Positions 12,800-62,668 of a stretch of DNA of 64,000 nt are shown piece after piece. This stretch comes from Parietichytrium sp. I65-24A (taxonomy: Eukaryota; Sar; Bigyra; Thraustochytrida; Thraustochytriidae): the NCBI GenBank assembly GCA_012862575.1, contig BLSF01000039.1:249695-313694 (forward strand), read 5' to 3'. The first letter of the stretch is position 1. Every line of letters starts with the position of its first letter. The notes under the pieces are model-generated. The model worked only from the letters and a program-made list of their open reading frames with translations. It was not told where the DNA came from and did no database searches. Made by a program: the position numbers and the translations under genes.

Positions 12800-15700
12800 A
12801 TGCACGGCACATTGGAGCTCACGACCACAACAGATGCCGTGAAAGAGCATGAGGGCGTTCTTGCCCTGGCAAAGAGAGGTCTGTTTGGTGCACTTTTTGA
12901 GCTAAAAGAGAGGCGGAACAGCTCTCAAGAGAAATTCTTCTTCATATCAACTCTGATCATGGGCTTGCAATTGACATATCTCTCGTTCTCTAGCTATGGA
13001 GACTTTCTGTGGCCAGATGTATTTGCACAGCACTTGCGAGCTGCACTGGAAGTTCTTGCGTTTGGCTTCATAGATTTTGGTGATGGAAGCTTGCTTTTAT
13101 TGTTGTTGTGCGTGTGCATTGTGACCGTGGTTCTTCTGTACCTCGGTATGACCATTCTCTCTTTAGATGAGATCCATCATCGCGTAACATCTTCGCGCTC
13201 GACGTTCATTATTGCTTTCTACAACATTATGCGTTTGAATCAGACTGTTCTTCAGATTCCTGTGATTGCAATTTTTGCCCGCGCGACGAAAGGTGAGGGG
13301 ATGTCAATACTTCCATCTGGTTTGGTCTCAGTACTCTCGGTGTTTGCGTGTATCTTCATGCTTTTGCATGTTATCATCACGTCAATATTTGCACTGTGTG
13401 TGTTTGATCATCTCCCATTCAGCAGTAAAGGGTATGAAAAGTCGCTTTACGCTGCAGCACATGGGCGTGTGGAGTGCGCAGCGACAGTCCTACGCGCAGC
13501 AGCTGCTTTTATCTTTCCCACAATGGGTTCGGCGACACTTGGCACCATCTCCTTTTCGAATCAGCTCGCACTCGTCGTGCTCAATTTGACGTGTGCAATG
13601 CTTTTGGTCTTGATCTACTTTCACTGGCTACCGTGGTTCAACAGGAGCTGGAATCGTTTCAGTATCGGCTGTTACTCCTTGTACCTCTGGTCTGCAGTGT
13701 GCGTCGCAATTGCACAAATTGTGAACGATCGAACAGACAGGAGTTCGGTCATTCTGTTCACGATCAGTCTCCCGTTCTGCCTTGTATCGGTACTCTCCAT
13801 GTCTATTGCAAGAGCAAACTATCTCCGATCCTGCGAGCTTGGCAAGCTCGTCGGAAACCCCTTCTTGCTCGAGGTTCATCTGCGTATTAAATTTTTGTGC
13901 GAGGTCAAGAATCACACGTGGCTCGCTTTCGAAGGTGAGGTTGAACAGGAGTACCGGCGAGCTGCCGAGCTATCGCCTGCTTCGCCTTTTGTGAATCTTT
14001 CTGTTGCCGCAATTGTTGTGGCTTGCTCCAAGAAGGTCATCTATTCACTCAACCTGCTGAAGCAGGCGAGGCAATCGAGCACAGCCTTGGACATGGAGTT
14101 CATGCTCTTTTACCACAATAAAATGACGAGGGAAAAGAGAATGAACAGTACCAGCGATGTTAGCTTTCTGGAAGCAGACAATCATATTGCCCAAGCAAAA
14201 GCATCCTTAATCTCCACGCTAAAATGCACGGCATCCTTCTGGCGAAAGGTTTCTCATGGTAACTTTACATCTCGCGAGCTACTCGAGTACGGATCGAAAG
14301 TGCACCTTGGCGCTACCGCCGTGCGGGCTGCCCTGCAGCGCTTAACCAAACTGAAAGTGTCAAACAAGGAAACTGTGCAAATTCACGCGATGTACTACCA
14401 ATTTGTCATGAACGACCGCGACACGGCATATCGGGTGATCGCCAAAGGCAACACCTTGGGGGCTAGCGACTCTGGAGCTGCAGCAGTGTGTACAATCAGT
14501 GGAGACAAGGGGAGTTTGGGCCAAATTCTTGATATGTCTAAAGGCCTGCTTGAGATGTTTGGCTTTACTCGCAGCGACTTGGTGGGTCAAAACATCAGTA
14601 TGCTGTGCCCTCAGCCGTTTCAATCCGTACATGACATGTTTCTCCAACAGTTTCTCGCTCTGGACAACGATTTCGTTTCTCAGGCGAGGCGCGTTTTCGG
14701 GCTTCATCAATCAGGGCACATTATGATTCTTGACTTGGAAATTACTCCAAATATTAGCCTCAGTGGCGAGCTTATTTTAGCCGCCAAGTTTTCCTATGCA
14801 CCGGAGTCGGGCACCTCAAATTTGCTTTTGGTGGACTATAAAAGTGGGCTAGTAACCGGGGCAAGCAAGCATGGGGCGGAAATTCTTGGAATCGACGAGC
14901 ATGACCTCTACACGATGAACGTCTCAATCAAAGATGTCGTGCCCGAGTTCTTTAACTTCAAGCAAAATGAAGAACACGAAGACGTGTTTTTGGCCACCAG
15001 TCCAGAGGTGAAATACAAGATGCGCTCGAGGCTTGTTCAATACAAATCCAAGCCCGAATCGCCCGTGTCTTTCGACATTGGTGTTTACCTCGTCTTTATC
15101 GTGGCACAAGAGAATCAGATGTCAATCCACGAGCAAGTAGAGCGAATCCGTCGTGACCGGGAAGAGGCCGAAGAGGAAAATGAGAGTGATTCGGACTCCA
15201 GCCAAGGGTCTGGCGCATCATCAAGCGGGCTATCTCGTGATCGAAGCGACTCTGAAGGAGACGTCGGAGGGGTAACCTCTCAGGCTCCGAATGCCCTTCA
15301 TAGTCCTACGAGCCCAAGTGCAGACGAGAAGGTTGGGCTGCTCAGGGTCCCCAATTCGGTTCGTAAGACGAAGGGGAAGGAGACGGAGGCTTCAGGAAAG
15401 AGTTTTCAAATTTCGCGAAAAATTCGAGTCATGAATGACTTCGATAAACAGTCTGTAGGTTCGAAGGCAAAGTTCACGAGAGCGTCCGCCTCTGAAAACG
15501 GGCGAACCGATGACACTAGCCAAGTTTCTGATCCTCAAATGGAAGATATTGCTGCATGGACCGTCCGGCACATTCAGCGGCGAATCGCCAAAAACCTCCA
15601 GAAAAAGGATCCCAAACTTCAGAGCTTTAGGCGATTTGGCTGGAGGTTTATGCTGTTCTTCCTACTCTTTGTCATCTCGGAGTCCGTTGTAAAGATGATC

Positions 15701-17515
15701 TTCATTGGGATTATTCAAAATGAGGTGAATTACGTTCTGACGACTCAAATATCTGCCGCCGCAATGTCGGATGTCGCAAATGCTGTGCTGTACGCCCATT
15801 CGGAAGGGGCAAAACTCAACGGGTCGGTGGTTCCACGCTTGGCGTTTAACGACTCAGATCTCTTGGAAAGCGCGTACAATAAGCTCAAGGTTGCCCATAC
15901 CATTGGCGCAGCCTTCGCTGATACGTATAGCCCAACCGACGATCTTCACATTCTCTATCACAGTCCGTCGCTCAAACTTGTTTCTGACGACGAAGCCGAT
16001 AAAACTGCTAGCTACAATGTTGCCGTTCTGGAAGTCCTGGGCCACATTGAAACGTACCAGGAGAAGCCAGAGTTGTGCACCGAGTCTTGCCATTACCTGT
16101 TGAACAACGTTATGATGACGATCGTAGACCAAAATATGGACATTGCGGACACCCTTCACTCCCATACCATGACCTTTGTAGATTCGATCGGGCTTGTGGA
16201 CGAAATTGCCTTGCTCACGTCAGTTGGTATTTTGGTGATTGCTTTGATTGTCGTGTATATCCCGATGTTTTTCAGCAATGAACGCCGGGGTGCCAAGGTC
16301 GGTCGGGCGTTTCTTGCTATTCCAGATCGCGTCGCAAGAACTCTGCACACCCGAACAGAGCGACGGCTCGCGCTTGTCCAAAATCCCCGCGAAGATTGGT
16401 TTTCGATTGAAAGAGATGACCTGGAGTTTGGCGACGATGGACCGCTTGGAACAGTGACGGAAGATCCAGCAGGGAGCGGTTCCGGGAAGAGCAACTCTGG
16501 AAAGCTCAATGGATCCTCAAAAGGAAGCTGGCTTCTTTCAAAGATAAGTAAGGGCGATAAGAAAGTAGAGCCGCTTGTAGAGAAACCTTCCAGCAAATCT
16601 GCACACAAGGTCAAGATTGAAAAACGGGACATTAAACATGAACCATTGTTCCGTCAACTTTTCCTGATGCTGTACATGATGATTAGAATGGGCGCTATCT
16701 TCTGGATCGTGGCAGGGTTTTGCGGGTTTCTTGCCCTGCAAAATGAGCTGGCAAATTCGAGAATTCATTCTGCAAGTAGCTTTCTTGTATATGGAGCGCG
16801 AAGGCGTACTCTTCTGGATGCCCTGGTGTATTGGTCTGCAGTACCGACGATTGCGCAGGCTTGGGAGCGTAGAGACAACGAGAAAATTCTTCAGAAAATC
16901 GTCTCTTACACCTCTCGAATGACAGTGATCGACGAGGCGTTGAAGTATGGAAACGAAACAATGCGAATCGAACCTTTTACAGAGACGGAAGGAGACCTGT
17001 TCTCTTTACTATTTGAAAACGCATGTGATTCCCAGTGCTTGGAATATCTTGCTCGCGTTGGCGACAACGAAACAGTTGATTCGCGCGTTGGGGACCTAAA
17101 GCACGGGTTGCTCTTAGCCGTGGACCGAAAGCTGGCTCTCTTCAAAGAAATCAGAGATGCGCTCGCGCTCCACGTTGAGAATGAGACAGACGAGTTTGCG
17201 ACCGAAGCGCTTGAAGCACACAAACTGAAACTGAACAACCTCGAGCCGCAAGTTTTGGTTGCCGAGCAGCTCTCTATTGCCACGGATATCGCCACTGCGG
17301 ATTTTGAGGATGTCGTCACAGGGATCAAATTTGATCGGATCGTGTCGTGCTGTGTCTTTGTCCTTCTGCTCATGGTCGGGCATCTGCTCAATTTACGAAC
17401 CTTTAAGCGCCTAGATAAGGATTTGAAGAAGAGCCAAACTCTGCTTCTTCTCCTACCGGAGCAGGTGTTTCAAAATGTGCCCCAGATTGTCGGGCTTTTG
17501 AATGACTCCAGCTAA
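12800..17515 (+). CDS. TmcB-like multi-pass PAS sensor protein
   Basis: A 1571-residue membrane protein resembling the TmcB/TmcC (tiny macrocysts) family of protist sensors. About eight transmembrane helices (residues about 35-355) are followed by a helical repeat region (about 360-550, the TmcB TPR-like part) and a PAS domain (about 565-660, with LLEMFGFTRSDLVGQ and the end of a second PAS-like block). A Ser/Glu-rich linker leads to two further extracytoplasmic modules, each between two helices (about 943/1140 and 1290/1520). The last helix is followed by the family-typical LLLLLPEQVFQNVP tail. The first ATG of the frame was chosen; the frame extends upstream only from a GTG. Ligand and output are unknown. 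It converges on the hybrid histidine kinase, with about 270 bases between them. Confidence 0.85.
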   Translation: MHGTLELTTTTDAVKEHEGVLALAKRGLFGALFELKERRNSSQEKFFFISTLIMGLQLTYLSFSSYGDFLWPDVFAQHLRAALEVLAFGFIDFGDGSLLLLLLCVCIVTVVLLYLGMTILSLDEIHHRVTSSRSTFIIAFYNIMRLNQTVLQIPVIAIFARATKGEGMSILPSGLVSVLSVFACIFMLLHVIITSIFALCVFDHLPFSSKGYEKSLYAAAHGRVECAATVLRAAAAFIFPTMGSATLGTISFSNQLALVVLNLTCAMLLVLIYFHWLPWFNRSWNRFSIGCYSLYLWSAVCVAIAQIVNDRTDRSSVILFTISLPFCLVSVLSMSIARANYLRSCELGKLVGNPFLLEVHLRIKFLCEVKNHTWLAFEGEVEQEYRRAAELSPASPFVNLSVAAIVVACSKKVIYSLNLLKQARQSSTALDMEFMLFYHNKMTREKRMNSTSDVSFLEADNHIAQAKASLISTLKCTASFWRKVSHGNFTSRELLEYGSKVHLGATAVRAALQRLTKLKVSNKETVQIHAMYYQFVMNDRDTAYRVIAKGNTLGASDSGAAAVCTISGDKGSLGQILDMSKGLLEMFGFTRSDLVGQNISMLCPQPFQSVHDMFLQQFLALDNDFVSQARRVFGLHQSGHIMILDLEITPNISLSGELILAAKFSYAPESGTSNLLLVDYKSGLVTGASKHGAEILGIDEHDLYTMNVSIKDVVPEFFNFKQNEEHEDVFLATSPEVKYKMRSRLVQYKSKPESPVSFDIGVYLVFIVAQENQMSIHEQVERIRRDREEAEEENESDSDSSQGSGASSSGLSRDRSDSEGDVGGVTSQAPNALHSPTSPSADEKVGLLRVPNSVRKTKGKETEASGKSFQISRKIRVMNDFDKQSVGSKAKFTRASASENGRTDDTSQVSDPQMEDIAAWTVRHIQRRIAKNLQKKDPKLQSFRRFGWRFMLFFLLFVISESVVKMIFIGIIQNEVNYVLTTQISAAAMSDVANAVLYAHSEGAKLNGSVVPRLAFNDSDLLESAYNKLKVAHTIGAAFADTYSPTDDLHILYHSPSLKLVSDDEADKTASYNVAVLEVLGHIETYQEKPELCTESCHYLLNNVMMTIVDQNMDIADTLHSHTMTFVDSIGLVDEIALLTSVGILVIALIVVYIPMFFSNERRGAKVGRAFLAIPDRVARTLHTRTERRLALVQNPREDWFSIERDDLEFGDDGPLGTVTEDPAGSGSGKSNSGKLNGSSKGSWLLSKISKGDKKVEPLVEKPSSKSAHKVKIEKRDIKHEPLFRQLFLMLYMMIRMGAIFWIVAGFCGFLALQNELANSRIHSASSFLVYGARRRTLLDALVYWSAVPTIAQAWERRDNEKILQKIVSYTSRMTVIDEALKYGNETMRIEPFTETEGDLFSLLFENACDSQCLEYLARVGDNETVDSRVGDLKHGLLLAVDRKLALFKEIRDALALHVENETDEFATEALEAHKLKLNNLEPQVLVAEQLSIATDIATADFEDVVTGIKFDRIVSCCVFVLLLMVGHLLNLRTFKRLDKDLKKSQTLLLLLPEQVFQNVPQIVGLLNDSS

Positions 17516-17787: not shown

Positions 17788-19920
17788 TCAAGGCTCGACT
17801 TTGACAGCAGATACGTCCGACAGCCTTTGTCGTAACCCAGCGCACGTTATTCTGCCGCACTCATATTGACGAACAGTTTCCAGAACCAGGAGTAACAGCT
17901 TGGAGGAGCAAGGCTTTGGTATAATCCCATCAAAATGGGAGCGCTTCATCAGATCCATGTCACCCACAGTGCTAACAGCAGCGGTGAAAGCAAAAATTGG
18001 GAGATCCTTTCGGTGGGGAAGCTGGCGAATGCGTTCGGTGGCTTCTACTCCATCTAGATGTGGCATGTTTAGATCCATAAGAATGCACGAAAAGTAGTCA
18101 TCCATTTTCGCACAAAGATCACAAGCAGGTTGTCCGTCGTCCACGCAAATAACGTCTTTGATTCCCAAGGTTTTCAGCAGCCTAGTAATGACCATGCGAT
18201 TGACAGGGTTGTCATCAGCTATAAGCACTCGAAGTTCGCTCAAGTTTTTCTCTGTGGCGCCGATTGCATCGGTCAAGTCAGCAGAATTTCGGCTCTCAAT
18301 CTCCTTCACCACGGCATCGGCCAATTTGGCACTTGACTCCGCCTCGCGCGTTGCGGAGGTCCATGTGACCTCAATTTCCCAGTCAGCGCTTTCCTTGATT
18401 TCTGGCACGGTAATCCAGCCGGACGAAACGGGGAGATAAGATCCGGCCCTCGGCGACGAAGTTGCTCTCTTTAGGGGGACGAGAACGTGCATTGTCGTGC
18501 CTTTGTTGACGACGCTGGATGCATGAATTGTGCCCCCCATTCGACGAACGAGCTCGAGGCAGATAGCAAGCCCCAAGCCTGTTCCGCCATACATACGCGC
18601 AACTGTTATTTCTGACTGCATGAATCGTTTAAATATGTTGGGAAACGAGTGAGCAGGGATACCAATGCCTGTGTCCTCAATTGATATAAGGAGCCACTCT
18701 TGTTTGAACTTGCTACCCTTCAGTTTCGAGTCTTCCGTATCATAGCCGTGGGGAAGGACACTGCTGTTGCTGCACTGTTGGTTCGGACGAGAAGCCTTGT
18801 TTTTTCTTTCGGTGTCCCGCTCATTTGGCAGGAGCGGTCGGGAAGCATCGTTTGAGTCTCCAGCACAGAGGTCCTTGTCCAAGTCACCGTTATCAATTTG
18901 CACTGAAATGGCATCTAGTACCGGGCTAGTTTCTTTATTCAATTGTGCAAGGTCATCTTCCTCCGTACACATAATTGGCGAGAAAGAATGTGGTTGCGAG
19001 GAGAAATTCTCCAGCCACTTGTCCTTAGCGGCTGTCGACTTGAAAGTAGAAGCTGATAGCGACACAGTGCCGCTATGTGTGAACTTGACGCTGTTACTGA
19101 GCAAGTTGCTGAGGACCTGAACAGTCCGCATGCTGTCGCCGCAAAGTTTGTCAGGAATCTCATCGTAGAACCGAAATCGTAATTGAACAGACGACCTCTT
19201 GGCCAAGGATGACACGAGCGCAAGAGAGCGTTTTACGGCCTCCCCCAACGAGAATTCGGCATCTTCCAGAACAAAATCAGGCTTATGGTACCTGGAAAAG
19301 TCCAAAATATCGTTGACGATTGCCGAGAGGAGTTTGGCACTCGACAGAAGGGAGTCCAGCATGGACAACTGAGACTTATCCAGGTTGGATTTAGAAAGAA
19401 TCTCACCAATACCAATAATTGCCTGCAGAGGGGTTCTTATCTCGTGAGAAACGCTCGCCATGAATTCTTGCCGCGTCCGGGCTAGAGCTTCTGCCCGTGC
19501 CTTGAGCTGCTGAAGGTTTTCGAACCTCGCATTTAACTCGTCAAGCTTTAGCTGTGCGGACTGCACGGCCAATTCAAGATTTAGCGCATTATCAAGGATC
19601 GCATTGATGTCTGCGGTCCGATTCACAATAACTATCACCGTGCACACGGAAGCGATGGCAGTCACGGCCTTTGAGATGAGCACTAGACCGTCCACATTAT
19701 AGTACTGAGCCGCGAACCCGAAGAGATGCGTGAACCCGCACGCCAAAATGAAGAACATGAACCACACTCGTATCGTCATAAACAAAGATGCGATCTTCCG
19801 TCTTTTCAGAAATATATACAGCTGCAGCGGGATGACGAAATACGACGCAGCGATCACCAGCTCGCTCACCGTGAGCACCACGCCCACCACCGACTTGGAG
19901 TCTATCTCCGTGTGCACCAT
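17788..19920 (-). CDS. hybrid histidine kinase with ethylene-receptor-type membrane domain
   Basis: A 710-residue phosphorelay kinase. Three N-terminal helices match the ethylene-binding domain of plant ETR1: the SYFVIPLQL block gives the equivalents of ETR1 Tyr32, Ile35 and Pro36, and ACGFTHL gives the copper-ligand pair Cys61/His65 (ETR1 Cys65/His69). ETR1 Asp25 is replaced by Glu20. The plant GAF domain is missing; a short coiled coil leads to HisKA (SVSHEIRTPLQ, His159). The ATPase domain has its N box (NLLSNSVKFT), G1 (DTGIGIP) and G2 (GGTGLGLA), split by an acidic, Ser-rich insertion of about 120 residues. A C-terminal receiver (LIADDNP, LMDLNMPHLDG, and a Lys in IIPKP) ends the protein. 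The frame is open 95 codons further upstream, but that part is Arg-rich and unlike the family, so the ATG just before the first helix was chosen. Ethylene binding itself is inference. Confidence 0.9.
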   Translation of the reverse strand: MVHTEIDSKSVVGVVLTVSELVIAASYFVIPLQLYIFLKRRKIASLFMTIRVWFMFFILACGFTHLFGFAAQYYNVDGLVLISKAVTAIASVCTVIVIVNRTADINAILDNALNLELAVQSAQLKLDELNARFENLQQLKARAEALARTRQEFMASVSHEIRTPLQAIIGIGEILSKSNLDKSQLSMLDSLLSSAKLLSAIVNDILDFSRYHKPDFVLEDAEFSLGEAVKRSLALVSSLAKRSSVQLRFRFYDEIPDKLCGDSMRTVQVLSNLLSNSVKFTHSGTVSLSASTFKSTAAKDKWLENFSSQPHSFSPIMCTEEDDLAQLNKETSPVLDAISVQIDNGDLDKDLCAGDSNDASRPLLPNERDTERKNKASRPNQQCSNSSVLPHGYDTEDSKLKGSKFKQEWLLISIEDTGIGIPAHSFPNIFKRFMQSEITVARMYGGTGLGLAICLELVRRMGGTIHASSVVNKGTTMHVLVPLKRATSSPRAGSYLPVSSGWITVPEIKESADWEIEVTWTSATREAESSAKLADAVVKEIESRNSADLTDAIGATEKNLSELRVLIADDNPVNRMVITRLLKTLGIKDVICVDDGQPACDLCAKMDDYFSCILMDLNMPHLDGVEATERIRQLPHRKDLPIFAFTAAVSTVGDMDLMKRSHFDGIIPKPCSSKLLLLVLETVRQYECGRITCAGLRQRLSDVSAVKVEP

Positions 19921-29110: not shown

Positions 29111-29425
29111 GTTCATGTATTTGCACGCGCGACTTGAGCACGGCACAGTCTCATTCTACCGCAGTTTCCCTCCGGACTAGCCTCATCCGTCACTGTATTT
29201 AGCTTGTAGAGCAGAGCTAGGCTAGACGATGTGAATTCATAGTAAACCTGTATTGTTATTTCCAACTCCTGCGGTCCGTGCGCTTCGAACCCACTGTCAA
29301 TTCTCAGTTTCATGTCTGACGATCAGCAAAGCAGAATACAACAGATTAGTACAGAAACTAGATAGCCTCCATGCCAGGGACGGACGACAACCAGATGGGG
29401 CTGTCTAAGCTTGTGTCTGGCTAAT
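29111..29425. other. spacer before tRNA cluster
   Basis: About 315 bases with nothing recognisable besides the methyltransferase 3' end and the upstream flank of the first tRNA gene. Confidence 0.5.
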
Positions 29426-29514
29426 CTCGCTATAGCTCAGTTGGTAGAGCAGAAGACTGTAGTGTTTCCAGTATGGATTTCTTCGGGTCCCTGGTTCGAT
29501 TCCGGGTGGCGAGA
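29426..29514 (+). tRNA. tRNA-Tyr(GTA), intron-containing, copy 1
   Basis: Acceptor CTCGCTA pairs with TGGCGAG and ends in A73 without CCA. The D arm GCTC/GAGC, anticodon stem GAAGA/TCTTC and T arm CCTGG-TTCGATT-CCGGG all form. The anticodon GTA (29459-29461) is followed by G37 and a 16-base intron (about 29463-29478). The C1-G72 pair is the eukaryotic tyrosine identity element. No T4 run follows within the 19-base gap to the next copy. Confidence 0.97.
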
Positions 29515-29533
29515 TTGACTTCTGATTTATTTC

Positions 29534-29619
29534 CTCGCTATAGCTCAGTTGGTAGAGCAGAAGACTGTAGTGTTTCCATTGAATTCTTCGGGTCCCTGGT
29601 TCGATTCCGGGTGGCGAGA
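29534..29619 (+). tRNA. tRNA-Tyr(GTA), intron-containing, copy 2
   Basis: Exons are identical to copy 1; the intron is shorter (about 13 bases) and differs in sequence after TGTTTCCA. It starts 19 bases after copy 1. No T4 run occurs in the 28 bases before copy 3. Confidence 0.97.
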
Positions 29620-29647
29620 TGTTAGCCTTCTGTGCTTGATTGTATGA

Positions 29648-29733
29648 CTCGCTATAGCTCAGTTGGTAGAGCAGAAGACTGTAGTGTTTTCAGAGATTTC
29701 TTCGGGTCCCTGGTTCGATTCCGGGTGGCGAGA
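29648..29733 (+). tRNA. tRNA-Tyr(GTA), intron-containing, copy 3
   Basis: Exons are identical to the others; the intron reads TGTTTTCAGAGAT. It is the only intron of the five with a TTTT run (29687-29690), a potential RNA polymerase III stop inside the gene. T-rich sequence (TTTGTTTTTCCATTTTTT) directly follows, the first good terminator after copy 1. Confidence 0.97.
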
Positions 29734-29735
29734 TT

Positions 29736-29753
29736 TGTTTTTCCATTTTTTGG
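29736..29753 (+). terminator. RNA polymerase III terminator after tRNA-Tyr trio
   Basis: T5 and T6 runs begin within 10 bases of the end of copy 3, as expected of a Pol III stop. No run of four or more T separates copies 1-2 or 2-3. Confidence 0.7.
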
Positions 29754-30171
29754 GTTCTCACATGGATTGCGGTTTGCGCTTCTTTTACGAAAATTCAGCG
29801 CAATTTTTGATTTTTGGAACCCGAATCCTGAAAGCCAGCGTTGCGACGATTATAGAACCCCTCCAACCCGTTGAGTTGCTCTTCACGGAAATGCGTTTTG
29901 GAACAATTGCTCACGTTGTTTTCTGCTGTAACTTTGGTGCACGGTCACGGTTTTGAGACACTTTGTGAGTTCTCTGTGCTTTCGGATTGAACGCTCTTCG
30001 GGAATCGGGTGCGCTTTTGACATTGTGATTTGCACCATTTCTGAGCGCCCGCTCACACCGAAACAATTTTAAAGTGGGACGTGAAGAGGCAACCAAGCAA
30101 ATACAAGGCAACTCTTAAGATTGCCTCAGATCCTAGCGCTGTGGAGGAATGTGATGGAACTTCCCCGAGAA
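29754..30171. other. spacer, nothing recognised
   Basis: About 420 bases between the tRNA trio and the possible gene relic. Short open frames on both strands have no features. Confidence 0.5.
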
Positions 30172-30978
30172 TCAGCTCGAAAAAAAAGTGTTGAACTCTG
30201 CACTAGTGGTCACGCACATGTGTGAAACGTCTCCTTTCTCGCACACGGTCCGCGTAGAGATAGCTGAATAAGATGGAGGAGAACTGCTTGCGTCAACCCA
30301 TATTGAAGATCCTCTCTCCGAAGACTGACATGACGAATGCGCAGAAGCGGCATCACCCTTTGCAAAGTGGTGCTGTTGAACCGGTTTGCCGTGGCTGTCC
30401 TCTTGCCAAAAAAAGATGAAGTACTTGATTGCAAGCAACCCATACAGGGGCGGCCGAGCTCTAAGCAGACTCGAGTTATAGCATGCAGGGCCATTAGAGT
30501 TCACAGGTTCACGTTCCTCTGTGTCGAGAACTGCAAACATCCACAACCAGCCAACTTGGAAAACAATCACAACCAAGCGCAGCATCATACTGCAACAAAC
30601 CTCGTGGGAGAACCTGAACTCTATTCTTCTCCTGGCTAGGCAACTTTTCTTCCTAGTATTAAGAAGTGAATTCACACTGTCAATAGTCTCACCTCTCCAC
30701 AGCTGGCACATCGTTAAACTTGGATGCATATCTTGGATCTTTATTTCGATGCTTTATTTCGATGCTGATACCCCTTTAATAAGTGAATTATACACCACTT
30801 CTTCAAACTTGCAAAGGACCACATTCCATGACGTGAAACGATAAACGATAAAATCATGGATCACAAACAGCTCTTTGTTTTCAAATTCATAAAAGCAAGC
30901 ACCAATCAACTCTGTCCTATCAGATGTTGCACCACTTGTGCAAACTCTTCGCATTGTTGTAACTTGAACTCCAAACAT
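30172..30978 (-). pseudogene. possible relic of a membrane protein gene
   Basis: Two open stretches in the same frame (30754-30978 and 30172-30753) are separated by one in-frame TAA, next to a 13-base tandem duplication (30741-30753 and 30754-30766). The translated text has protein-like texture: a hydrophobic segment (LVVIVFQVGWLWMFAVL), a loop with CYNSS, a second hydrophobic segment (YGLLAIKYFIFFW) and a Ser-rich tail. The block IKYFIFFWQ faintly recalls the OSTA/TMEM184 family, too weak for a call. It could be a chance open frame. Confidence 0.25.
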
Positions 30979-31100
30979 TTTCTAAAGCCAATTTAGGAAA
31001 GAAAACGAAGGTGGGCAAGTGAACTAAGAATCGAGTTCATTTCCTATCAAGAATTCCTAGAGGACTACAAAAGCCACTGGTTGGGGCAGACTCCTGACCA

Positions 31101-31186
31101 CTCGCTATAGCTCAGTTGGTAGAGCAGAAGACTGTAGTGTTTCCATTGATTTCTTCGGGTCCCTGGTTCGATTCCGGGTGGCGAGA
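31101..31186 (+). tRNA. tRNA-Tyr(GTA), intron-containing, copy 4
   Basis: Exons are identical to copies 1-3; the intron reads about TGTTTCCATTGAT. An isolated copy 1.4 kb downstream of the trio. It is followed at once by a strong T-rich terminator (TTTGTTTTTTCTTTTTTG). Confidence 0.97.
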
Positions 31187-31188
31187 TT

Positions 31189-31205
31189 TGTTTTTTCTTT
31201 TTTGT
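31189..31205 (+). terminator. RNA polymerase III terminator of tRNA-Tyr copy 4
   Basis: Two T6 runs start within 5 bases of the tRNA 3' end. Confidence 0.75.
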
Positions 31206-31483
31206 CTCGTTTTTCTGAACTTTAAGTTTTTTGGCAAGTCTGCGGTATTTGGTAGCTTTGCGTTTTGCGAACCCTCTCTCACAGCCACCACTTGTGCTCT
31301 CAGCCTCGGTGTTGGCCGACATTCGATGATTTTTTCGATTCTCTCAACTTGAACGAACGAAGTTTACTCTCAATCGAAAAAGGAGAAAATGGTGATTTTT
31401 TGATTGAAAGAGAGATTGAGTATTTGTAGCGAAATGTCCCGATCATTAGTTCAACTGGTAGTACTCGAGCTTACCAGTGATTA

Positions 31484-31572
31484 CTCGCTATAGCTCAGTT
31501 GGTAGAGCAGAAGACTGTAGTGTTTCCAGTATGGGTTTCTTCGGGTCCCTGGTTCGATTCCGGGTGGCGAGA
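31484..31572 (+). tRNA. tRNA-Tyr(GTA), intron-containing, copy 5
   Basis: Exons are identical to the other four; the intron (about 16 bases) differs from that of copy 1 by a single base (GTATGGG against GTATGGA), which suggests a shared recent origin. A T4 run lies 4 bases after the gene. An AGTACT-like sequence (GTAGTACTCGAG) lies about 25 bases upstream. Confidence 0.97.
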
Positions 31573-41436: not shown

Positions 41437-43404
41437 TTAGCTCGAACTACTGAGCGAAGGCCCGACTTCGAGGTCGCCGTCGTCGAATCCAATCCCGCTT
41501 GCCTTGAAACGAGACTTGGACTTGTATGCCTTTATGAGTTCCTTAGCAACCTTTTCGACATCAGCCGGGAACTTTGAGGTGAACTGGATGGACTTATTGC
41601 GAGCAAACAAAGTCTGGACGAGAGACCGCGTCTCCGCTGTGGCCTTGCTATGAAATCCCGGATCCTCGTGAAACCTAAAACCAGGCTCATGAACCAGGAG
41701 GACTGGCTTTTTCAGCTCTACCGCGTTGTTCAGGTCTGCAGTGACAGACACGGACCCGAACGTGTCGTCAGCGAGCAAAATTACGAGGCAAGCGGCGGAG
41801 TTGACATTTCCAGCTTTGGTGCAGAGATACCCCTGTTTCTCCAATGATGTCTGTAACAAGCCCAACTTCTCCGAAATGGCCGAGTTGCTAGGATTTGACG
41901 ATATGCAAAAGTGCGCCGAAGTGTTCGGAGGCAGGGCTCCACGAGCTTCTCTCATCTGTTGAATCATACCAGACTTTTTGCAAAACAAGAACCCTGTGCC
42001 TAGGAAAGCAAGCGCCCCTACGGAGCCTAAAAGGACTGGTAGGAGTGATGTCGTTGCATCAGTCCCAGTGTTATTTTTTGCGATCATCGCGGAGGACGGG
42101 GCCTCCGTCGGTGGCTTGGTTGGCGCTTTGGTTGGAGATAAGGTAGGTGATACCTTGAAGACGGACATTACGCCTGGAAGGACCAATGAAGTGAAGCACA
42201 CAGTGTCACCAGTGCGAACTGCGACCAAACTCGTCGTTGCAAGGCGGCCATCGTCCTCGACCTGGAAAGCGATGCCATAGCTGCGATAGCTTGTGGATGA
42301 CGAAAGGGTGGTCCGGTGCAAGAAGGTGCTCGAATCGTCTTCGCTTTGAGAGAAATACTGCAGGTTGCCTTCCCCAGTAGTCCCTGTGCTCGCTGCGAGT
42401 GATCTCACCACAAGAAATTTCCCAGCAATGCTCACGGACACCCCGAAACTTGGGGCAGAGTAGGTAACTGTGGAGGCGACACTCCAAAGCCCCGTGTCGG
42501 CTTTGTCGTAAACAAACACTGCCTCCGTCCCGTCACTCGTGTATCCGTTCACAGCCAGACGGTCCCCGCTCAGATCAAACCTTTGTCCATAGGTTCCCGT
42601 GCAATTGCACCCAGCATCGGAACATCGAGATACAGAAATCGGGTACTGATCCCGATGTAGTTCTTGTCCAAGGGTTCCGCCCGACGGTGCTTCGATGGTA
42701 GTCTGCAGGTCCCAGGTAGAGTCAACCCAAGAATAAACATGAAGGCAAGATCCTTTGGAGGAATCCCCGGAAAGCTGGTCGGATTTCATGACCTCGACTG
42801 CAAGAACATCCGAGTCCATAATCATGCTCAGTATGGGCCCCGAGCAGTCCGTGCTGGGTACGCTGATCGTGCCGTTTTGTGCCCACGCAACTTGAGTTCC
42901 GTTTACCGACCTTAGATACACGTCTTTGCCAACGACAAGTCTGTCCCCCCCGAGCGCGAGTCTTTTTACACCTTCTGCCTTCGCGGTAACGTTGAGCTCG
43001 TACTCTACCGACCACGCTCTCGTTTCGCTATCCCGAGCAAAGATAACTACTTTTGACGATCCGTCATCCACAGCGAGGCGGTCCGCACTCAGTTTGATGT
43101 CTCTGACAAACTCGCACGAGTCGCAGGTCAAGATGGCCGACTGTTCAAGCGCCGCGGAAGAGCCATACTCGTAAATCACAACATTTTGATGCGTTGCGAC
43201 TGCCACCGTGTCGTCGTCGCTCTCCAGTGTGTGCCCGAAAGAGTAGATCGGAAGCCGTTCGTCCAAGTAGATTGAGCTCTCGTACTCGTCCAGGAGAGTC
43301 GTGCTCTGCACCTCCACAATAGGGTACAGAATATCCTGTGCCCCTGCCCCGAGGAAGGCTGCGACTACACTGATGCCAGCGCACGCATACCCGGTCACCT
43401 TCAT
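41437..43404 (-). CDS. type I receptor: FG-GAP-like ectodomain, TM helix, TIR-like domain
   Basis: A 655-residue protein. A signal peptide (about residues 1-22, cut near GAGAQD) leads to an ectodomain with repeated blade motifs (IKLSADRLAV, LALGGDRLVV, FDLSGDRLAV, FGVSVSIAGKFLVV), as in FG-GAP-type propellers. A Pro/Thr stalk (SPTLSPTKAPTKPPTEAP) precedes one helix (about 453-475) ending in Cys-Lys-Lys. The cytosolic part (about 496-627) has a TIR-like order: strand HFCISS, helix EKLGLLQTSLEKQGY, strand CLVILLADDTFGS, then ADLNNAVELKKPVLLVHE, like the TIR block before a strand of type PVxxV. A canonical TIR Trp-Cys and catalytic Glu are not seen (an Asp sits near that place), so NADase activity is doubtful; a scaffolding or signalling role is inferred. 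The assignment is by pattern only. Confidence 0.8.
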   Translation of the reverse strand: MKVTGYACAGISVVAAFLGAGAQDILYPIVEVQSTTLLDEYESSIYLDERLPIYSFGHTLESDDDTVAVATHQNVVIYEYGSSAALEQSAILTCDSCEFVRDIKLSADRLAVDDGSSKVVIFARDSETRAWSVEYELNVTAKAEGVKRLALGGDRLVVGKDVYLRSVNGTQVAWAQNGTISVPSTDCSGPILSMIMDSDVLAVEVMKSDQLSGDSSKGSCLHVYSWVDSTWDLQTTIEAPSGGTLGQELHRDQYPISVSRCSDAGCNCTGTYGQRFDLSGDRLAVNGYTSDGTEAVFVYDKADTGLWSVASTVTYSAPSFGVSVSIAGKFLVVRSLAASTGTTGEGNLQYFSQSEDDSSTFLHRTTLSSSTSYRSYGIAFQVEDDGRLATTSLVAVRTGDTVCFTSLVLPGVMSVFKVSPTLSPTKAPTKPPTEAPSSAMIAKNNTGTDATTSLLPVLLGSVGALAFLGTGFLFCKKSGMIQQMREARGALPPNTSAHFCISSNPSNSAISEKLGLLQTSLEKQGYLCTKAGNVNSAACLVILLADDTFGSVSVTADLNNAVELKKPVLLVHEPGFRFHEDPGFHSKATAETRSLVQTLFARNKSIQFTSKFPADVEKVAKELIKAYKSKSRFKASGIGFDDGDLEVGPSLSSSS

Positions 43405-58409: not shown

Positions 58410-61400
58410 TTAACAGGATGATATGTGACATGGGCGAGGCGGGAGCGGTGGAGGCGTACCCGCTTTTGATCGCCTCTCAGATAAAAGTTTTTGAGACGGC
58501 ACGGGAGCATCCTCTTCGCAAACATCTTCATCGAGAGGCGGTGGTGGCGGTAGGGGCAATGGCGAACTTGGCCCAACGATAACAATATCATCGTCATCGA
58601 GATCAGCGAATTCGCTCAGATCAACATCGCACTCTGGAACGCTTGCTCGTATCCGAAATTTGGACCGATCCTTGTTAGAAGCGTTGACCGGTGACGGAAC
58701 GCAATTCTCGCTCTCGATTGCGAATTTCATCTTGTATTGCCAATCCTCCAATGCCTCGATACTTTGCACCCCGGGGCTCATGTAAAAAGGGCGAGGGGAA
58801 TCCGAATTGTCGACGAATGTATTGTGTTTTTGCCACCTGTGAACGTCCAGGCGCAGGATATAGGGCTTACTTTCCGAAGCGTCGTGCTCGACATTGACAG
58901 AGGCATTGGTAAAGTACCAAACTCCAGTTTTCTTAGCCTTGCCTTCATCCATGAAAAATTCAATCTTGTCTACATACAAGGTCGCAAACCGCTTCTTCCA
59001 TACCTTTCCTAGACTCAGCAGCCGCCGGCCCACAGAGGCAGCACTGCTACCGCTTCCGGAGATTGGAGCTGCGCTTCCATTTTTTCGTACATAGACAAAA
59101 CCTTCTTTGAGGGGGCTTGACCGGCTGAGCTTGTGATACGCTTTGCGGAGGAAGCTACGTCTGATCTGCTCTTCATGATTCTCCTTCGAGTCAGCGAGCT
59201 TTCTCAAAATTTCAACCCGCTGTGGCTCAAGGATGCGCAAACGAAGAAAATTAGGGAGCAGCCAGTGCATAAATCCATACCAGCAAGTTTGAGCAAGGGC
59301 GTCTTCCCCAACACGCTCCTTCTTTAAGATTCCGTGACTTTCCAAGGTGGCAAAATCAGACTCCAGTTTGTCCATAGAGTGCGCCCCATCGAGAAGCACC
59401 ACTGTGCCCAAGACCGTGGCGCGGTGGAACGCTGGGGCATTGAGCTCACTGTCAAGAGTGACGGCTAAACTAGCCACCTTGAGAATGAGCTGCTGCTGCA
59501 GAGTGTAGTCATTCACCATGGCACCCAGCACGCAACAAAGCGATAGTGGAGGCTGCATTTGCAATGATGCAATTAGGCACGAACTGTTATACTCTCGAGA
59601 GGAACCGCTCCCAAAAATATCCTCAAAGTGCAAGAAGCGCTCTAGCTTTTCGGCAAGGACCTTTTCAAGCTTTCGAACGTTAACTTGCTCAGCGAGAAGT
59701 TGGACCACGCTGCCATGGTCGCCGCCAAACACCCCAAGAGTCTGACGCTTAGATCTGGCAGCGAGGGGCTGTTGGTCAGAGATGGACGACATATCAGAGC
59801 TTTGTTTGGAGCGAAGTTTAGGCGCCTTCGAATCGGTTTTCGACACGGGATCTAGCGCCAGCGCCAGAGGCATAGCCTTGGAGGACTTTACCGAGTCCAA
59901 TGCAGAGAGCTGTGCCGCACCCATCTTCTTGCGGAGAGATGTCAAGTAATCGGTGAGGGACTCTACCGGGGAGTGCCAATAACAAACTTTGAGGTCAGAG
60001 TCCACACGGATGTAGCCTGCGCGGGAGAGTTCTTCAACAATTTCCTGTGCAAAAAGAGGATTGCCCAACGAAGTTAGCGCGATTAGATCCACCAACTCGT
60101 TTGGCACAGTCAATACATCAAGGTAGCATCGCAGCAAAGTTGCGAGTTGAGCAAAGGTCAACGGTCTCAAGGACTCGCAGTTCACTTTGGGTCGCAGGGA
60201 AGCCAGAGCATTGCGAACGTACGAAAAGCCGGATGCCTCCTTTCCGAGTGGCTTGAGGGCCATCACAAGATAAACTCCAGGCGGGTTCTCCTGAGCCATA
60301 TATTCTACGACTGTCCACGACTGCGGGTCCATGTACATGGCATCATCTACAAGGCAAATCACGAAGGGATCCTGTATCCGCTTGCTCTCGCATGAGCACA
60401 TGCCTTGAAAGATAGCCACGATGAGCCCTGCGATCGCCCAGTCGTCGGACCCGTCTTCCGCGACAGGTCTCGCGGTAGGGGAGGGCGGAAATACAATGTT
60501 TTGAAAGATTCCGTTGAGCAAGAACGAGCTCTCCACGAGCTTGCTGCCGGAACAGCCAAGCCAATTAATTACCGTGGCCAGCCGATTTTGCTCTGGTACA
60601 GATTCTAAGCTCTGCTCGATCAGGTCTGCCCACACCGAAAACTTGCGCTGCAAGCTGCCCTTTTCGAAAGGGTTACCAGCTGAAGTGAGGAGAATTGCAT
60701 TCGGTCGTTTGGAGTTGCTTCGCCAAATGAGAGCGAGCAGATGGGTCTTTCCACTCCCAACACCTGCTTCCACAATAGTCACAGCATTGGGCGACATTCG
60801 GTTTGGGATGCGCTCTGCCATAGCGTGTGGTGAGTCGGTCTCAATTGCACCGGTGTGAATGAGACGCAGTCTGAAAGTCCGAAAGTTATCCACGATGCGG
60901 GTACCGTAGCGAGACACCTGATGCTGCCATTCCTGCTGCCAATTTGTATCGGAAGTTCCAACCGACTTTTTCCCAGAATCCGCCACTGCGACGGAGAACC
61001 GTGTTGCCGCGCTCAAGCGACCACTGGAGGAGGGCGAAAACACCTTGATAAGCTTCACTTTGCCTTTCACCCTAATTTCGCGCTCCTTCCGGGAGAACTG
61101 AACCTCATTCCGCACCAGGCGTCTGGTTTTCTCATCGGTCAGCACGCGGGACTTTTTGTTTTCTTTGGCACTCTGCATCAGACGAGCTGCCAAATTCACG
61201 GCATCGCCAATGACAGTGAGCTCCTTGCGGCCACCAGCATGGCCTACAATCCCGCAGAAACAGACGTCCGTGGTAATCCCGATGCTCGCTTCAAGCTGCA
61301 GCTCGCCCTTGAGCATGCTCACAATTCTCAATGCAGACAATACGGCTCGAGTGGCATCATTTTCGTGCGCATGCGGAGCTAAACCAAATACCCCAATGCA

Positions 61401-62668
61401 GGTGATGCCCTTTTCGTCGACATTGAGTTTGTTAATGCCCCCCTCATAGTCGTATATCGCAGTCTGGACACAGAGCACAGCGTCGTTTAGCAAGTCCGCG
61501 TTCTTGGTTCGCTTCGGGCCCTCGAAATCGTCCAACCGGAAGCCAAGGTGGATGAATAAGACGCTGACGTGCCTCATCTCACTAATCCAATCTTTACTTG
61601 CGTCATTTGAAGCCTGCTGGTCGGCAAAGTATTTTACGATGGTATCTGGTAGGAAAAGCCGCGACCTGAACTCCTCGGAGAAGAACGACAATACTGCGTC
61701 TTTCTCTCCGAGAACATCGGTTTCCGCGTTGAGCATGGTGCGGTTTTTCTTCTTAATGAATCCTTTCTGCTTAACAATGGCCCAAAACCCATCTTTAATC
61801 TCCTTTCCTTCGAAGTGCTTGTTAAGTGACACCATCACGTCATCGGAGCAGATGATTTTGGAGTCGTGCGAGGCAAGTTTCTCGGCTTCAAACGCCTCGT
61901 TCACGGCCGACCCTACGATGATGTACTCTCTGTGGCGATAGGTGGTGCTCCCGGCGAGGTGCAAAATTGTCATTGGGCCAGCCCCAATGCCAATCTTGAA
62001 GCTCCACTGAAGTTCATCGGAGACCTTAATTGCCGGTAGTGTCTCCTGAATGTCTGTGGCACATTGAGCTGCGCGCAAAATAGCATCGCCAACAGAGGGG
62101 ATAGTACTGTCCACGGGCCAGATTGCAATGATAGCGTCGCCCGCAAACTTGATGATGTCACCGCCTGCCTTTTGAACCAATCTAACAACTTGAGAAAAGC
62201 ATGCGTTGAGAAGGAATGCAACGCGTTCAGGGCCACTAAGAGCACACAAAAACAGGCCAGGTTAGCGCATCACATCGACGTAAGCAAAAAAGAGAATTGA
62301 CCAATCAGTCACAATAAAACTCACCGCTTGTCATCCGCGCAAAGTTGGTCAGAGAGCGCAGAGAAGTTTGCGATATCAATGAACATGCAGCACCCATCCA
62401 GCTCTTGAGCGTAGGTCATCCACCGTCCCTGCGCATCCGCTTCCATGCTGCGTCTTTTATCCAGCGTCGCCGGTAGAAAGCAGGCCACCATCGACTCCGT
62501 CTTTGTCTGCACTTGCTGCAGCCCTGGCGCTCCCAGTGTGAACGTGGCACTTCTCTTGTGCCCTCTCCTGTTCGAACTTCGCTTCACGGGGCCCTCCTCC
62601 GTGAGTCCCATGGCCAAGTCCTGGCCCACATCCAGGCTGCCAAATCTCCTGTGCAACTTGCGCGACAT
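58410..62668 (-). CDS. soluble-type adenylyl cyclase with P-loop and PH domains (two exons)
   Basis: A 1389-residue protein from exons 62668-62325 and 62235-58410; the splice joins DDKR to GPERV in frame. It resembles animal sAC (ADCY10) and makes cAMP. C1 (about residues 95-290) has both metal-binding Asp (MFIDIANFSAL, Asp98; KFAGDA, Asp148). C2 (about 338-480) has the adenine-site Lys (NVDEKGITC, Lys390; human Lys334) and CGIVGHAGGRKELTVIGDAVNLAARL. An ATPase-like region follows (Walker A AGVGSGKT, about 605-612; Walker-B-like FVICLVDDAMYMD). After a helical stretch comes a PH-like domain (about 1158-1290, GKVWKKRFATLYVDKIEFF, DWQYKMKFAI) and a Pro-rich tail (PLPLPPPPPL, PPPLPPRP). Animal sAC lacks PH and Pro-rich parts. 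The first in-frame ATG was taken as start; GTG lies upstream. Confidence 0.92.
62236..62324 (-). other. spliceosomal intron (89 bases) in the cyclase gene
   Basis: The donor is GCG|GTGAG and the acceptor CTCTTAG|TGG after a T-rich stretch (TTTTTGTGTGC). The in-frame TGA at the donor is removed and the sAC match becomes continuous. It is the only clear intron in a protein gene of the window. Confidence 0.9.

Follow-up and report, generated by a model that had tools for sequence, protein, structure and literature searches.

Can a single-celled eukaryote build a membrane receptor on the plan of animal Toll-like receptors (TLRs), with a repeat propeller where leucine-rich repeats (LRRs) would stand? 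The question is raised by one gene in a 64,000-nucleotide stretch of DNA, hereafter the window, that sits on contig 39 (BLSF01000039.1) of the thraustochytrid Parietichytrium sp. I65-24A, whose genome assembly comprises 42.5 Mb in 172 contigs. A sequence-only reading had placed a transmembrane receptor with a propeller ectodomain and a TIR-like cytosolic domain at window positions 41437..43404, and had likened it in plan to Toll-type receptors. We find that architecture there, in a frame on the minus strand (the earlier reading named none): a signal-peptide-like start, a repeat ectodomain, a Pro/Thr stalk, one helix and a tail that belongs with TIR domains by profile homology and by fold, with Asp at the place of the catalytic Glu. 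The features of the gene are as follows.

41437..43404, minus strand: whole coding frame, 655 aa, zero internal stops.
43339..43404, minus strand: signal-peptide-like N-terminus, residues 1-22, with a hydropathy peak of 1.62 at residues 3-21.
42160..43332, minus strand: repeat ectodomain, probably FG-GAP-like, residues 25-415, matched by an own-genome blade profile and carrying four N-glycosylation sequons.
42094..42150, minus strand: Pro/Thr stalk, residues 419-437, read from the sequence; the Pfam PT match is below cut-off (12 bits versus 26.2).
41980..42045, minus strand: single transmembrane helix spanning residues 454-475, with K476 and K477 next to it, called by hydropathy.
41512..41913, minus strand: TIR-like domain on the cytosolic side, residues 498-631, called by profiles and fold search; its model lacks helix B and its BB region is short.
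41734..41736, minus strand: Asp557 at the TIR catalytic Glu position, placed by MAFFT and hhalign alignments.

The membrane anatomy agrees with the sequence-only reading at each point. Hydropathy marks the N-terminal signal-peptide-like segment and a lone strong transmembrane peak (2.04 at residues 457-475), which lies between the stalk and K476-K477; both segments were called by hydropathy rather than by a dedicated predictor. The overall reading as a Toll-plan receptor is supported by the signal-peptide-like start, the single helix and the TIR tail. Further sequons lie at residue 444 near the stalk and at 494 and 603 across the helix. General searches say little about the protein: a Pfam scan returned three matches, all below cut-off (ThsB_TIR E 0.14, PT 0.16, FG-GAP_2 6.9), so that Pfam by itself would leave it nameless, and no LRR, immunoglobulin (Ig) or SEFIR family was among the matches, SEFIR profiles not having been compared directly. 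A sequence search of the PDB found dCTP deaminase only (E 0.68), and a single-sequence AF2 model of the whole protein was uninformative (pLDDT 32.9).

An intron read through, or two genes taken as one, could in principle mimic such a protein, and intron-bearing genes seem present in this genome, where GAPDH matches are fragmented on C57. We consider such an artefact highly improbable: the chance of 655 stop-free codons is about 3e-14 at the base composition of the window, the domain order is topologically sensible, and a second protein with the same plan within one frame, L067 (described below), makes a chance fusion or faulty gene model unlikely.

The case for a TIR tail rests on profile comparison and on fold. 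Against a profile of six TIR domains from the same genome (A2: L011, L033, L034, L022, L023 and L024, each matching the Pfam family TIR_2, PF13676) the tail scores 37.1 bits (E 3.4e-10). With hhalign, a tail profile that includes the relative L037 matches 26 bacterial TIRs with a probability of 95.1%, and across the three membrane TIRs introduced below the probability is 95-99% for TIR versus 9% for nucleoside-deoxyribosyltransferase-like (NDT-like) domains. A fold search with a model of the tail finds a TIR/flavodoxin-like fold and, among the families it listed, places the tail in TIR, which together with Asp at the Glu place is the outcome that the sequence-only reading had named as support. 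Pfam TIR_2 is not found in the window protein at a limit of E 10 (most matches above 0.1 being removed by filters), and the gene is absent from the 38 PF13676 matches in the genome. An NDT-like identity was considered and rejected, its hhalign probability being only 9.0 against a comparison set of four members from viral contigs that are NDT-like by our own reading. Viral contigs yielded six candidate relatives of the tail, none confirmed; a further profile (A3) drew 44 stretches in genome contigs and 36 in viral contigs, again with none confirmed. Two DNA motif scans of the viral contigs gave no matches, and the seven loci of a third were set aside, five lying in proteins read as NDT-like, two of which are identical.

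A profile search for paralogues, which the sequence-only reading had recommended, recovered another protein built in this way, together with a shorter relative.

G000:C13:596782-598875, minus strand: L067, a 698-aa frame, recovered by search with L037.
G000:C28:138529-139233, plus strand: L060/L037, a 235-aa helix-plus-TIR frame with Lys at the Glu place.

In L067, RCC1-type repeats are joined to one strong helix (residues 449-467, hydropathy 2.39), beyond which a TIR-like tail carries Thr where the Glu would stand. Its repeats pass the RCC1_2 cut-off (23.6 bits versus 22) and match WD40_RLD with E 1.3e-8, but at 35 bits against a cut-off of 150; its signal peptide was judged by eye, the N-terminus falling outside its four highest hydropathy peaks. 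Taken alone, the match of its tail to A2 is weak (16.0 bits; best shuffle 10.9). A genome search with the L067 helix and tail found L037 (E 1.3e-4) and L079 (E 0.0024) and, up to E 10, nothing else besides L067 itself. After a short start, L037 has a helix of very high hydropathy (3.03) and then a TIR that passes the Pfam cut-off; it may be either a membrane adaptor without Glu or the final exon of a receptor whose ectodomain lies on an earlier exon. In L079, part of a 1062-codon frame, TIR is the sole domain recognised; a 'PH-like' label given to it is unsupported by the Pfam scan. The window gene, L067 and L037, which has no visible ectodomain, form a small set of Glu-less membrane TIRs. Elsewhere, L014 (G000:C29:225544-225891, minus strand) has a TIR beside two neighbouring hydrophobic stretches, with Glu kept, and is probably another type of membrane-tethered TIR.

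To the sequence-only reading the catalytic Glu appeared replaced, and the alignments agree: Asp557 falls in the Glu column by MAFFT with 45 bacterial TIRs, by hhalign and by MAFFT of all TIRs read. The column holds Glu in 43/45 and, in a larger alignment, 74/75 of the listed bacterial TIRs. These came from a motif scan with at least 115 matching stretches, of which 80 were used, giving 81 TIR stretches (75 of at least 130 aa); the sample is biased, as the motif DVFISYS..D was mandatory, and subsets of 45 (A5), 26 (A6) and 12 (tree) of the 75 served the different comparisons. Among 29 own-genome rows, namely the window protein, L067 and 27 of the 38 PF13676 matches, several of them near-copies, Glu is kept in 25. 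Thirty of the 38 matches had been given loci and two (L079 and L080) were added later; L012, L018, L026, L035 and L036, each of which was truncated, a near-copy, misread or not located, and six matches without a locus of their own stand outside the Glu count. The four Glu-less rows are the window protein (D), L067 (T), L037 (K) and L079 (Q), and so include all three single-pass membrane TIRs, with a hypergeometric chance of 0.0011 that is to be read knowing that the three are related, that many other rows are near-copies and that the test was framed post hoc.

The Glu loss suggests that the window TIR lacks NADase activity and may act as a scaffold. Some TLRs keep a Glu at the catalytic position, and its loss therefore counts more heavily against enzyme activity than its presence would count in favour. 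A receptor that is itself an active enzyme, with Asp557 or another residue still supporting NAD cleavage, would fit the acid that Asp retains and the top fold-search match, an NAD-bound TIR structure, albeit an E100A mutant. We judge it very unlikely, given the Thr and Lys at the same place in the two other membrane TIRs and the reduction of BB and helix B, a part of the TIR catalytic pocket.

From strand A to the Glu column the window protein has 58 residues, compared with 65 in L067, 67 in L037, 69 in all six A2 TIRs but one, which has 68, and a median of 70 (range 69-89) in the listed bacterial TIRs. A tail 11 residues shorter than 69 in this stretch, with helix B missing from its model and no Glu, is also what would be expected of a dampener, a degenerate TIR that caps or poisons TIR assemblies and so restrains cytosolic TIR enzymes at the membrane. 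Activation and inhibition are indistinguishable from the present data, and we regard dampening as unlikely.

Support for the ectodomain is more graded. The sequence-only reading had described FG-GAP-like blades, a claim that stands in moderate form. Pfam FG-GAP_2 reaches 7.4 bits against a cut-off of 23 (E 6.9), whereas the ectodomain scores 13.1 bits (E 0.0042) with a profile built from 14 blades of L038, L054 and L055, three further proteins of this genome; the highest of 1000 shuffles reached 7.9. The match is made up of six ordered stretches, none strong singly and two scoring below zero. When seven hand-cut blades were each left out in turn, three were clear (blades 2, 3 and 5, with 5, 1 and 0 of 500 shuffles as high) and four were not (blades 1, 4, 6 and 7, with 123, 79, 272 and 59). 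From these results the ectodomain is likely an FG-GAP-like repeat propeller, a blade count of about seven being an estimate. Clear FG-GAP_2 proteins occur elsewhere in the genome (22 matches). The four ectodomain sequons lie at residues 138, 168, 177 and 267. DxDxDG is the calcium-loop motif of FG-GAP propeller blades of the integrin-alpha type; the pattern D.[DN].[DNS]G was not found in residues 1-440, so in that respect the ectodomain is not an integrin-type propeller.

Similar ectodomains are present on proteins without TIR, among them the following.

G000:C65:136934-138487, plus strand: L055/L076, part of a 746-codon frame with FG-GAP repeats and no TIR.

L055 has FG-GAP_2 repeats (55.2 bits) between two strong helices, a Pro/Thr stalk and a short tail without TIR, its topology differing from that of the window receptor in that a further strong helix precedes the repeats; L081 combines a stalk and a hydrophobic C-terminal end with repeats that resemble the L067 repeats. 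Comparison of L055, L081, the window gene and L067 indicates that comparable ectodomains occur without TIR and that TIR sits on two unlike ectodomains. The same anatomy could thus serve adhesion, feeding or self-recognition, the TIR tail being a plain protein-binding platform, and L055, with FG-GAP repeats, Pro/Thr stalk and helix but no TIR, suggests that FG-GAP ectodomains have uses beyond TIR signalling. We think such a role rather improbable, since the tail groups with TIRs of Roc-COR and kinase proteins and since TIR tails on two unlike ectodomains suggest signalling.

The company that the tail keeps is visible in the TIR repertoire of the genome, where PF13676 has 38 matches, 37 above cut-off (each TIR frame covering about 1.5 kb on either side of the match, so that helices further out would be missed). 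Roc and COR accompany TIR in L011 and L033, and COR alone in the examined stretches of L034 and L008; other partners are an NPHP3-type ATPase (L017), ankyrins (L019) and a protein kinase (L080). A Pfam scan of the A2 members other than L022 found COR-A on L011, L033 and L034, and TIR only in the stretches of L023 and L024; the label 'ROCO' applied to the A2 and tree sets is accordingly loose, and in the tree it also took in L015. In a tree of 41 rows, a single branch (100/99) isolates 12 of them, the three membrane TIRs, the A2 set, L015, L079 and L080, from the remaining own-genome TIRs and 12 bacterial TIRs, so that the Glu-less membrane tails share a clade with Glu-bearing TIRs. L080 (G000:C48:319200-321700) joins a protein kinase to a TIR with Glu kept. 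Separately, L017, L020, L021, L027, L028, L031 and L032 carry near-alike TIRs; L017, the one scanned, bears the NPHP3-type ATPase, and the set looks like an expanding NLR-like family.

We put at about even the chance that the window protein is a surface (or endosomal) single-pass receptor with a degenerate TIR that recruits Glu-bearing cytosolic TIRs by TIR-TIR contact. On this reading, the simplest one and that of Toll receptors, its ectodomains would bind ligand or cluster and bring the tails together; the clustered Glu-less tails would then nucleate an assembly and recruit Glu-bearing TIRs, candidates being those on Roc-COR GTPases, the TIR-kinase and others of the same clade, which might act through NAD chemistry or through their GTPase or kinase. 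Under this scheme the protein would be the 'recognition receptor' that the sequence-only reading suggested, perhaps with a part in immunity. Several observations weigh against it. The full-length protein scores 5.8 bits against the bacterial TIR profile, with two shuffles scoring no lower, and the isolated domain is only just above shuffles (9.3 versus 6.8). The BB loop is a usual site of TIR-TIR contact, and its shortening might weaken rather than serve assembly. L014 keeps Glu with two hydrophobic stretches, so membrane attachment alone does not track Glu loss. The order inside the 12-row clade is not resolved, and the branches of the window protein, L067, L015, L079 and L080 are long; the tree program flags a meeting of long branches, and rows may therefore have been pulled together. 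Ligand sensing, localisation and interaction are, finally, proposals from sequence.

It is conceivable, and we hold this tentatively, that a heterotrophic protist lying outside the lineage of animals and choanoflagellates independently built Toll-type receptors in which two unlike propeller ectodomains carry TIR tails devoid of enzyme activity, leaving the chemistry to cytosolic Roc-COR and kinase TIRs. Toll-like receptors may then have arisen on more than one occasion. If so, a receptor-adaptor-effector system of Toll/MyD88 parts would exist with Roc-COR TIRs replacing MyD88, and a propeller-transmembrane-TIR family beside dozens of other TIR domains would represent a second origin of the Toll plan and would allow the features required of a TIR receptor to be tested. 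Were the enzyme residue lost whenever a TIR joins a surface receptor, the shared principle would be scaffolding and not NAD chemistry. Genome size (42.5 Mb) and gene content are in keeping with a eukaryotic microbe. The host is likely a heterotroph, as the chlorophyll-binding family PF00504 has no match in the genome; tandem acyl-carrier domains (PUFA-synthase type) and a TPI-GAPDH fusion were looked for there, and neither pattern was seen.

Other genes of the window include a hybrid histidine kinase whose N-terminal domain resembles that of ethylene receptors (17788-19920, minus strand; ETR1_N 66 bits), a 1571-aa protein that matches TmcB-type TPR and, below threshold, PAS (12800-17515, plus strand), five tRNA-Tyr (gta) genes within about 2.1 kb (29425-31572, plus strand) and a 1187-aa protein (58410-61973, minus strand) with a nucleotide-cyclase match at residues 219-309 and a long remainder that has no Pfam match at E 0.001.

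How does the window receptor compare with described systems? In the parts of the cited papers available to us, to which all that follows from them is confined, membrane TIR receptors of the Toll plan are described as an animal-choanoflagellate invention (PMC6040629, PMC2939053): LRR-transmembrane-TIR proteins are reported as unique to choanozoans, Ig-transmembrane-TIR proteins were found in no non-animal of the survey data set, and kinase-TIR fusions are reported as choanoflagellate-specific (PMC6040629). Bacterial conflict systems are mentioned with TIR and propeller domains, though not as a TIR receptor with the propeller outside (PMC7159879). An atlas of 7,432 eukaryotic TIR domains recognises six eukaryote-only, uncharacterised clades, and describes the TIRs of animal TLRs and adaptors as primarily thought to be scaffolds (PMC13142454). 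Among the papers listed in searches of the open-licence literature, a scope that leaves subscription papers and gene catalogues uncovered, none names a propeller-transmembrane-TIR receptor in its title or abstract opening; the data of that atlas may well hold such proteins.

Among protists, Dictyostelium TirE combines RCC1 repeats with two diverged tandem TIRs that earlier Pfam models missed, and in its repeats and divergent TIRs resembles L067, although no helix is mentioned for TirE in the text available (PMC13142454). Dictyostelium TirC has an N-terminal putative membrane helix and a TIR but, unlike the window protein, keeps Glu and is a potent NADase; the same text mentions FG-GAP for none of the Dictyostelium TIR proteins (PMC13142454). 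Within its own genome, the window tail has among its nearest TIR relatives, by profile and tree, the COR proteins L011, L033 and L034, which differ in having no clear helix beside the TIR, in keeping Glu and in being fused to COR (with Roc where the stretch reaches). Receptors of the IL-1 type share the single-pass TIR plan and differ in their Ig ectodomain. Animal and choanoflagellate TLRs share the signal peptide, ectodomain, single helix and cytosolic TIR, from which the window protein departs in lacking the TIR Glu and in bearing FG-GAP-like repeats in place of LRRs.
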